The notes below the pieces were generated by a model that saw only the letters and a list, made by a program, of their open reading frames with translations, did not search any database and was not told the origin of the DNA. The position numbers and the translations under genes were made by a program. This document shows, one piece after another, positions 37,273 through 40,548 of a DNA stretch of 49,711 nt (position 1 is the first letter of the stretch; each line of letters starts with the position of its first letter). The DNA is from Candidatus Poseidoniia archaeon (GTDB lineage: Archaea > Thermoplasmatota > Poseidoniia > MGIII > CG-Epi1): positions 1-49,711 of the forward strand of contig JAPYSW010000004.1 of NCBI GenBank assembly GCA_029936395.1, written 5' to 3'.

Positions 37273-37848
37273 ATGATTTCCATCGAAGAAGCTAGAGAAG
37301 CAATTCGAAATGGGGAAATTGTGATTTATCCAACTGACACAGTCTTAGGAATGGGATGTGACCCATTTAATCAAACGGCAGTTGACAAACTTTTTGAAAT
37401 TAAGGGAAAACAAAGTGATGGTCTCAGTATTATGTTAAATAATAAAAAAGAAATTTATAATTATTGTGAAGTAAATAAGAAATACGAAAAGATTATTTCA
37501 GATTTCCTACCAGGCCCTATAACTCTCATAATGAAATCTAAAAAGAAATTTGCAAAAGGAGTTACTAAAAATGGAAATATTGCAATAAGAATACCATTGA
37601 ATAAAACGGCAAATGATTTGGCAAAAGATAAACCAGTCATAACTACAAGTGCGAATATTCATGGTGAAAAAATTGCAGCGAATATAAAAGAGGCTAAGAA
37701 CATCTTTCAAAATAATTGTTATTATTTAGATGGAGATAAACCAACAAATATTGAATCTACTATCATTGATTTATCGAAAGACAGACCCGAAATAAGACGT
37801 ATTGGTGCTTTATACTCAACTATTCTGGAGGGTATGTTTGAATTCTGA
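37273..37848 (+). CDS. Sua5/YrdC/YciO L-threonylcarbamoyladenylate synthase
   Basis: AIRNGEIVIYPTDTVLGMGCDPFN, FEIKGKQSDGLSIMLNN, FLPGPITLIMK, IAIRIP, ITTSANIHGEK, STIIDLS. Confidence 0.93.
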   Translation: MISIEEAREAIRNGEIVIYPTDTVLGMGCDPFNQTAVDKLFEIKGKQSDGLSIMLNNKKEIYNYCEVNKKYEKIISDFLPGPITLIMKSKKKFAKGVTKNGNIAIRIPLNKTANDLAKDKPVITTSANIHGEKIAANIKEAKNIFQNNCYYLDGDKPTNIESTIIDLSKDRPEIRRIGALYSTILEGMFEF

Positions 37849-38728
37849 TGAAATCGAAAAATGGAGGCAAGCTGGTAACCTAGCCAGTGAAGCTTTACAG
37901 TTCGGAAAGAGTATAATTGAAGAGAAAAAATCAATGTTGGAAATTACCGAAGAAATAGAAAATTATGTAAGAGATAAAGGAGGTGAATTGGCATTTCCAA
38001 CTAATTTAGCAATTAATAATGTTGGAGCACATTGGACTCCGTCAAGTAAAAGTGAAGACTCGTTTTGTAAAGGTGATTTAGTCAAACTTGATGTCGGAGT
38101 GCACATTGAAGGATATATTGGAGATAATGCATTAACTATAGAAATTGGCACTGATAAGTATAGAAAAATGATAGAGGCTTCACGTGAGGCTCTCAATAAA
38201 GCTGTGGAGATTGCTGCAGCTGGAATAAGTGTTGGAGTTATTGGTCATGCCGTACAAGAAACAATTGAAAGATATGGATATAGACCTATTGCTAATTTGA
38301 CAGGGCACAAAATAAAGAGATACAATTTACATAGTGGAGTTTCCATCCCCAGTGTAAGAGAAAGAGGTGGACCAGTTCTAAAAACTGGAGATATCGTAGC
38401 TATAGAACCATTTGTGACTGATGGGGCTGGAAGAGTAGGCGGTAAGAGAAATTCAAATATATATCATCTAAGACAGGTTCGTAATATCCGTGATCAAAAA
38501 GCAAGCGAATTAATGATGGAAATACAGAATAGATACAACGGTTTACCATTTGCTGAAAGATGGTTACACGCATTCCAAAAAGACGCGATAAAAAATTTAC
38601 AGAAACTCATGAGAGCAGGAATAGTTTCCTATTATCCTGTTTTAGATGAATTAGGTAAAGGCATGGTAGCCCAATCTGAACACACACTGATGATAACTAG
38701 TAGTGGGAATGAGGTTTTGACTAAATGA
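37838..38728 (+). CDS. map: Methionine aminopeptidase type II (start likely TTG 37838 after a GGAG site)
   Basis: FPTNLAINNVGAHWTPS, VKLDVGVHIEGYIGDNALTIEIG, NLTGHKIKRYNLHSGVSIPSV, EPFVTDGAGRV, AQSEHTLMIT. Confidence 0.93.
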   Translation: MNSDEIEKWRQAGNLASEALQFGKSIIEEKKSMLEITEEIENYVRDKGGELAFPTNLAINNVGAHWTPSSKSEDSFCKGDLVKLDVGVHIEGYIGDNALTIEIGTDKYRKMIEASREALNKAVEIAAAGISVGVIGHAVQETIERYGYRPIANLTGHKIKRYNLHSGVSIPSVRERGGPVLKTGDIVAIEPFVTDGAGRVGGKRNSNIYHLRQVRNIRDQKASELMMEIQNRYNGLPFAERWLHAFQKDAIKNLQKLMRAGIVSYYPVLDELGKGMVAQSEHTLMITSSGNEVLTK

Positions 38729-40548
38729 AGGACTCTGAAGTAAAAAAACGACTAGATAAAGTCATAAACTCTCCAATGTTACAAATAAATATTCTTGCAG
38801 CTTTAACGGGAGCTTTTGCAGCAGTTGTAACCTGGATATTCATAAATTTAACTAATATGATCAAAGAATTCTTCTATGGAAATAGTTTTGTGAATCATTC
38901 ATTGAGAAGTACTGATAATGAATGGTTGATTATTTTCATACCGGCTTTAGGTGGATTGATTGCAGGTCTAATTATTGAGTATGGATCAAAAGATGCAAAA
39001 GGTGCAGGTGTACCAATCGTAATGGAAGCTGTAGCTTTTAAACAAGCTAGATTAAGTGCAAAAAAAGCAGTTGCTAAATTCTTTGCTTCAGCTGCAAGTA
39101 TTGGTACTGGAATGTCATTAGGGCGTGTTGGACCAATGATTGTTATTTCCTCAACTATAGGCTCCGAAATCGGGCAACGAACCGGTAAAACTGTAGAAGA
39201 AACAAGAACTATCATTGGCTGTGGAGCTGCAAGTGCAATTACTGCTGCATTCAATGCCCCTTTAGGAGGAGTTCTATTTGCAATCGAATTAATTTTAGCT
39301 GAACTCAAAACTAGATCATTTATTCCAATTGTAATTGCCGCAGTAATAGCTACTGCAGTGACTCGAAGTTTAGCTGGAGATGTTGCTGCATTTGATAAGA
39401 TACCACACTATACTCTGGGTTCTCCGATTGAATATCCATTCTATATAATTCTGGGTTTAGTAATAGGTTTAGCGGCTTCTATTTTTATAAAATTAATGAA
39501 CTTTGTGGAAGATAATATTGAAAATATTAAAGGAATACCCGTTCCATTAAGGACCTGCTTAGGAGGGCTTTGTGTTGGGCTAATTGCACTTTCTTTTCCA
39601 CATGTGCTAGGAAATGGTTTTGATGTAACTTCTGATTTAATATCATTAGATCCAGATAATTCTGATGGACTTATAATCGGAGAAAGTTTCCCAGTTGATA
39701 CTGACATTAGTTCCGGAATCGCTAGTCTATTACTTTTTATATTATCTATTATGGCGCTAAAAATAATTGCTACGTCTATATCTATTGGAAGTGGAGGATC
39801 AGGCGGTATATTTACGCCTAGCTTGTTCATTGGCGCTGCAATTGGCGCAGGACTAGGATTAGTCCTTTATGACTTCGGTATTGTAAGTCATCCTGGTGCT
39901 TTTGCATTAGTCGGAATGGCTGCCTTCGTAGCTTCGATGACACGTGCAACCTTAACGGCAATTGTGCTTTTATTTGAAATGACAGCCACTTATGAAATAA
40001 TACTACCATTAATGTTATCGTGTGTTGTCGCAGATGCCGTATGTTATGTAATTTCTGAACATTCTTTTTACACCTCCAAATTAGCTCGAAGGGGTTTCCA
40101 TATTGATTTAGGAGCTGGACAAGATTTAATGAGAATGATAGAAGTCAAAGAAGCCATGTCTGAAGAAGTTCTAACCATTAAACCAGATCGGCCTTTAGAA
40201 GTGGCTCTACAAATGATAGAAGATACAGGACATATGAGTTTACCAGTTCTAAATGAAAATGGTGAATTATATGGAATAATAACCTGGTCTGATATACATG
40301 AAGCTGCAGTTAAACATGAAAGGCATCTAACTGTAAAAGATTATTGTGTAACTGATTTGATTACGATTACTCAACGAGAAACCTTAGCTCAAGCATTAGA
40401 TTCATTGAGTTACAAAGAAATAAGCCATTTACCTGTTGTCAGTAAAGCTGATAACAAAAAATTGATAGGAATTATTACTAAAGGAGACATCATAAAGGCT
40501 TACAACAGGCATAGATTAGGCAGTCAAAAGACAAGTTGGCAAGGATAA
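38725..40548 (+). CDS. ClC-family chloride transport protein with C-terminal CBS pair, atypical gating residues
   Basis: KGAGVPIVMEA, MSLGRVGPMIVISS, AFNAPLGGVLFAIEL, GGSGGIFTPSLFIGAAIGA, and two CBS domains at the C-terminus. Confidence 0.93.
   Translation: MKDSEVKKRLDKVINSPMLQINILAALTGAFAAVVTWIFINLTNMIKEFFYGNSFVNHSLRSTDNEWLIIFIPALGGLIAGLIIEYGSKDAKGAGVPIVMEAVAFKQARLSAKKAVAKFFASAASIGTGMSLGRVGPMIVISSTIGSEIGQRTGKTVEETRTIIGCGAASAITAAFNAPLGGVLFAIELILAELKTRSFIPIVIAAVIATAVTRSLAGDVAAFDKIPHYTLGSPIEYPFYIILGLVIGLAASIFIKLMNFVEDNIENIKGIPVPLRTCLGGLCVGLIALSFPHVLGNGFDVTSDLISLDPDNSDGLIIGESFPVDTDISSGIASLLLFILSIMALKIIATSISIGSGGSGGIFTPSLFIGAAIGAGLGLVLYDFGIVSHPGAFALVGMAAFVASMTRATLTAIVLLFEMTATYEIILPLMLSCVVADAVCYVISEHSFYTSKLARRGFHIDLGAGQDLMRMIEVKEAMSEEVLTIKPDRPLEVALQMIEDTGHMSLPVLNENGELYGIITWSDIHEAAVKHERHLTVKDYCVTDLITITQRETLAQALDSLSYKEISHLPVVSKADNKKLIGIITKGDIIKAYNRHRLGSQKTSWQG

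Follow-up and report, generated by a model that had tools for sequence, protein, structure and literature searches.

A Marine Group III archaeal ClC protein with valine at the external glutamate position, predicted to conduct anions without proton coupling

The conversion of ClC antiporters into channels is a long-standing question that has been approached almost entirely through the channels of animals and through point mutations in a single bacterial protein. EcClC with a non-protonatable residue at the external glutamate position (Gluex, E148) no longer transports H+ but still moves Cl-, now uncoupled (PMC3519907), and the E148A mutant shows passive permeation (PMC4188032). Neutralization of Gluex also uncouples ClC-4 and ClC-5 (PMC4188032), and ClC-K is inert to H+ transfer through natural absence of the glutamate (PMC6019066). 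Three conditions have been proposed for a channel, namely a gate that is absent or open, a lowered central-internal barrier, and reduced Cl- affinity (PMC6019066). The positions equivalent to F348 and I356 of EcClC are occupied by bulky hydrophobic residues in transporters and by small or polar ones in channels, with Y425 of ClC-K as an exception (PMC6019066). As regards the internal glutamate position (Gluin, E203), several ClC antiporters without a titratable residue there pump H+ at robust stoichiometry (PMC7253180), and exceptions to an acidic Gluin were noted earlier (PMC3519907). In the open-access literature, we found neither a paper on ClC in Marine Group III (MGIII) archaea nor a description of Gluex-less prokaryotic ClCs; because the search was limited to open-access texts, this absence is weak evidence of novelty.

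The DNA analyzed here (the window, 49,711 nucleotides) comes from an MGIII archaeon and encodes a long ClC protein (Table 1), the sole ClC detected in the 1.17-Mb host genome (a single match). Membership of the ClC superfamily is clear from a Pfam profile search of the 607-aa protein: Voltage_CLC (PF00654) matches residues 76-440 with E=5.6e-93 and 312 bits (cut-off 24.8), covering profile positions 1-345 of 346, and PF00571 identifies two CBS stretches (E=6.1e-27). The ClC motifs GAGVP, GRVGP, and GGIFTP and the central tyrosine (Tyr-cen, Y449) are all present. AlphaFold2 run on seven MGIII ClC sequences gave a mean pLDDT of 40.6 with the membrane part unresolved, and the residue assignments below are taken from alignments.

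Table 1. Features of the ClC gene and its upstream neighbors (positions within the window)
Feature	Position	Strand	Basis or remark
Sua5/YrdC-domain gene, member of conserved block	37273..37848	+	gene order
M24 metallopeptidase gene (methionine aminopeptidase-like), next upstream of clc	37802..38728	+	order conserved in MGIII
ClC-CBS protein, 607 aa	38725..40548	+	ATG start; Pfam PF00654 and PF00571
Ala94 codon, Ser-cen/S107 site	39004..39006	+	alignment; Ala, Val, or His within MGIII
Val135 codon GTT, Gluex/E148 site in GRVGP	39127..39129	+	alignments to EcClcA; Val/Ile in all readable MGIII homologues
Glu188 codon, conserved EcClC E202 equivalent, kept	39286..39288	+	MAFFT alignment
Leu189 codon TTA, Gluin/E203 site	39289..39291	+	alignments; common to Glu-bearing relatives, uninformative
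Ile354 codon, EcClC F348 equivalent, bulky, transporter-like	39784..39786	+	alignment
Ile362-Phe363 codons, EcClC I356-F357 equivalents, bulky, transporter-like	39808..39813	+	alignment
Tyr449 codon, Tyr-cen/Y445 equivalent, kept	40069..40071	+	alignment
C-terminal CBS pair, about residues 474-597; GxxTxxD in both (GIITWSDI, GIITKGDI)	40144..40515	+	Pfam, motifs

The protein lacks the external glutamate. A phmmer alignment with EcClcA chains (E about 1e-32) sets GMSLGRVGP opposite GMVLGREGP and NAPLGGVLFAIEL opposite NAPLAGILFIIEE, and the gap between the Gluex and Gluin motifs is a single residue. The same pairing was obtained in a MAFFT alignment of 137 ClC ORFs (V135=E148, E188=E202, L189=E203, A94=S107, F363=F357, Y449=Y445). 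Thus the original prediction, which had read GRVGP in place of GREGP and warned that a proper alignment might shift the glutamate positions, is correct to the codon in its residue assignments, and the positions are unshifted in both alignments. A protonatable residue at Gluex, as expected of a Cl-/H+ antiporter, is absent. Fluoride/H+ antiporters of the CLC-F type have an altered end of the GREGP motif and a fluoride-type filter and keep Gluex; the window ClC departs from this pattern, since Pro137 of GRxGP is kept and Gluex is gone.

The substitution extends to the whole group. We collected 20 MGIII ClC sequences, one of which ends before the Gluex site, and found Val in 13 and Ile in six of the 19 that are readable. 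By comparison, Glu occupies the site in 94 of 100 ClCs from other Thermoplasmatota (Asp in two, Val in three, Ala in one). The contrast exceeds chance, and the survey of orthologues proposed with the original prediction thus bears out the Gluex substitution. The survey at scale covered Thermoplasmatota; beyond the phylum, it took in ClcA of E. coli and four bacterial ClCs encoded on plasmids, all with Glu. The valine codon varies among MGIII species (GTT, GTC, GTG, and GTA), and such synonymous variation indicates that the amino acid itself is conserved. The window ClC and its MGIII homologues are under strong purifying selection, with dN/dS of about 0.02-0.16 in close pairs, some of which have almost saturated synonymous sites. 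A sequencing error or a pseudogene as the source of Val135 was considered and rejected, given 19 concordant sequences, the synonymous codon changes, and the low dN/dS.

In trees built without the Gluex and Gluin columns (eukaryotes not included), the MGIII ClCs group together with full support, and their clade lies inside the long ClCs that bear Glu (GREGP). It follows from this nesting that Gluex was lost once, on the MGIII stem, and that the new state was then kept. Forcing all Gluex-less sequences into one clade was rejected (p-AU about 1e-9), so the loss in four other Thermoplasmatota sequences (L123 and L127-L129) is separate from that in MGIII, and there have been at least two, perhaps three, independent losses in the phylum.

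L127 (G096), L128 (G077), and L129 (G127) are short ClCs (425-437 aa) that read GLVSP, GIVGP, or GLVGP at the gate. L123 (G070), a long form known from a single MAG of 64% completeness, reads GVAGP at the gate, with Ala as its Gluex residue, and has Cys in place of Tyr-cen. The four form one group (98/97) in the careful tree but not in a quick 98-row tree. Asp at Gluex (GRDGP) was seen in L111 (G246) and L132 (G346), the latter being split between two reading frames, which looks like a frameshift or an assembly error.

The internal site is far less telling. The original prediction treated the internal proton glutamate, in the FAIELILAE helix, as neutralized: the TTA codon for Leu189 lies exactly where it was placed and pairs with E203 in both alignments. 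E203 is the only glutamate replaced in this helix; the strictly conserved neighboring one (E202) persists as Glu188. Nor does Leu189 serve as the second line of evidence for uncoupling that it was offered as. Glu at Gluin is usual though not obligatory in antiporters, and Leu189 is non-diagnostic because 91 of the 94 non-MGIII Thermoplasmatota ClCs that retain Gluex are also non-acidic there (Glu in just three) and published antiporters work without Gluin (PMC7253180). That almost all long ClCs in the phylum have a non-acidic Gluin supports the view that this residue is not a required proton relay. Set against the nearest relatives, the Glu of GxGxPE looked like a promising candidate for another acid lost along with Gluex; we dropped it because Ala or Gln stands there in most of the phylum.

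MGIII sequences have near-invariant acids of their own, at residue 148 of the window protein (Glu; 39166-39168) and residue 158 (Glu or Asp; 39196-39198), at sites where the remaining ClCs of the phylum hardly ever have an acidic residue.

Could coupling have been relocated rather than lost? An antiporter in which another protonatable residue does the work of Gluex might draw on these new acids, which could in principle carry protons, or on the retained E202 equivalent, and the dispensability of Gluin in several antiporters (PMC7253180) implies that proton paths can move. Against this, residues 148 and 158 align away from the external gate position, and with a non-protonatable Gluex EcClC ceases to transport H+ while ClC-4 and ClC-5 become uncoupled (PMC3519907, PMC4188032). 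We regard relocated coupling as improbable and, on the same mutant evidence set beside the alignments, strongly infer that H+ coupling has been lost in the MGIII ClC.

What replaces coupled transport depends on the rest of the pore. MGIII sequences retain the GRxGP frame, GGxFTPS, Tyr-cen, the central phenylalanine (Phe-cen), and the E202 equivalent; with frame, Tyr-cen, Phe-cen, and E202 equivalent kept, the fold and the anion path look intact. Of the conditions listed above for a channel, the first is present, the gate glutamate being absent. As for the inner barrier, MGIII ClCs have Ile at the F348 site and Ile or Val at the I356 site, much as in Glu-bearing relatives. In ClC-K-type channels the barrier may be lowered by small or polar side chains at these two sites or by a flipped Ser-cen loop; judged on the side chains (I354, I/V362), it does not look lowered here. 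The constitutively open channel of the original prediction is, with such bulky residues, an overstatement. A fast, constitutively conducting Cl- channel of the ClC-K kind, gated if at all by the CBS domains, could still be argued from the shared Val at Gluex and from the central serine (Ser-cen), which is replaced by Ala or Val in the genus of the window (g1). The Ile and Ile/Val side chains stand where channels have small polar residues (PMC6019066), however, and Glu-bearing sisters share the same lining, so that the gate is the only part of the pore that has clearly changed; in addition, EcClC with both E148 and Y445 mutated still falls below channel rates (PMC4188032). We therefore think a fast channel unlikely. 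Given the bulky F348 and I356 equivalents and the kept Tyr-cen, a slow uniporter like EcClC E148A appears likelier than a fast channel. One qualification concerns Ser-cen. S107G doubled the rate of EcClC (PMC6019066), and Ala or Val at this position in the window genus may ease the inner barrier, making a faster channel possible there.

Ser-cen is also a selectivity position, and its variation among Ala, Val, and His (His in the other MGIII genus) could be taken to mean that something other than Cl- is moved, such as nitrate or an anion of organic nature. A related thought is that the protein is dead for transport or mainly regulatory, as a membrane scaffold for the CBS sensor; a neutralized Gluin did disable transport by ClC-5 altogether (PMC5362633). 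His at Ser-cen is, however, found in many relatives too, and strong purifying selection together with intact GRxGP, GGxFTPS, and Tyr-cen speaks against a dead protein. Overall, this pair of options seems to us about as improbable as relocated coupling.

The C-terminal CBS pair is a candidate regulator. CBS pairs that bind nucleotides carry GxxT/SxxD in each CBS, and among the MGIII sequences long enough to include the pair, almost all have GxxTxxD in both CBS. The pair of the window protein matches archaeal CBS proteins such as MJ1225, with the whole protein as query and also with a CBS query carrying six non-native N-terminal residues. Judging by these motifs, nucleotide regulation is plausible and gating by the pair, as originally suggested, is possible. 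The boldest version of the argument is that MGIII evolved a true ClC channel independently of animals, from an antiporter lineage, discarding the glutamate gate and keeping a nucleotide-sensing CBS pair as the only gate, so as to become a prokaryotic counterpart of ClC-K; this we consider doubtful.

Taken together, the family-wide loss of Gluex, the purifying selection, and the behavior of EcClC E148 mutants (PMC3519907, PMC4188032) favor the proton-uncoupled passive anion movement that was first proposed for this gene. Our preferred reading, to which we give a probability of roughly 60%, is that the MGIII ClC is a proton-uncoupled passive conductor of an anion, probably Cl-, with the throughput of a uniporter or slow channel, Gluex having been lost once in the MGIII ancestor. 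Replacement of the external proton and gate glutamate by Val or Ile would have removed the outer gate and opened a passive anion path across the cell membrane, and the remaining inner constriction at Tyr-cen, with the bulky pore lining, would probably hold throughput nearer to that of EcClC E148A than to that of ClC-K. The CBS pair probably tunes activity through adenine nucleotides. In seawater, a passive Cl- path combined with an inside-negative potential would keep internal Cl- low and provide a counter-ion for pumps, and it would spend no proton gradient, unlike an antiporter. Internal Cl- in MGIII would be expected to settle at electrochemical equilibrium, and the path would carry counter-charge for primary ion pumps. 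A search of the genome for a rhodopsin (the idea being a light-driven counter-charge) gave no match, and the control was likewise unmatched.

The gene sits in a conserved block. The stop codon of the M24 peptidase gene overlaps the clc ATG (ATGA, 38725-38728), and such an overlap suggests that the two are co-translated. The order citrate synthase (gltA)-Sua5/YrdC-M24 peptidase (map)-ClC-SAP-domain protein-OBG-like GTPase is kept in both large MGIII genera. A scan for sigma-70 promoters and terminators returned chance-level matches, sigma-70 models not being meaningful for archaea. MGIII thus keeps its ClC within a housekeeping gene block, while the genomes listed for the two remaining families of class Poseidoniia (f2 and f3) yielded no ClC. 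A search for virus-borne relatives found none. One MGIII genome (G015, genus g3, 6% contamination) has two ClC copies, L005 and L025, which are 78-81% identical to that of the window and both have Val at Gluex; strain mixing is possible in this case.

If the preferred reading holds, the loss of Gluex in MGIII suggests a physiological use for passive ClC conduction in free-living seawater prokaryotes. MGIII seems to offer the natural, family-wide removal of a single glutamate, with the other known pore positions almost as in Glu-bearing relatives of about 38% identity, and hence a natural set of homologues for gauging the effect of gate loss.

Among described systems, ClC-K (ClC-Ka/Kb) shares Val at Gluex, a non-acidic Gluin, and a cytoplasmic CBS pair with the window protein. 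Unlike ClC-K, however, the window sequence is closer to prokaryotic ClcA and has transporter-like inner-barrier side chains, and it lost Gluex from within a set of Glu-bearing prokaryotic homologues (in a tree without eukaryotes); to our knowledge, the ClC-K partner barttin is not expected in archaea. L123 and the short L127-L129 resemble MGIII ClCs in lacking Gluex, but L127-L129 fall outside the MGIII clade and, at their length, are too short for a CBS pair. The nearest non-MGIII relatives are GREGP long CBS ClCs of Thermoplasmatota and bacteria (L037 and L038, each about 38% identical to the window ClC, and L147 of Streptomyces). These have the same long form and the same nonpolar Gluin; unlike MGIII ClCs, they keep Gluex and mostly GHGVPE, where MGIII has Val or Ile at Gluex and a hydrophobic residue replacing the Glu of GxGVPE. 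A further parallel is with E148A, E148Q, and other Gluex mutants of EcClC/ClcA (CLC-ec1), which by alignment have the same fold, lack a protonatable Gluex, and keep Tyr-cen and bulky inner-barrier residues, so that uncoupled Cl- movement would be expected here too. Unlike those mutants, the MGIII state is natural and family-wide, and it is accompanied by Leu at Gluin, by Ala, Val, or His at Ser-cen, and by a CBS pair.
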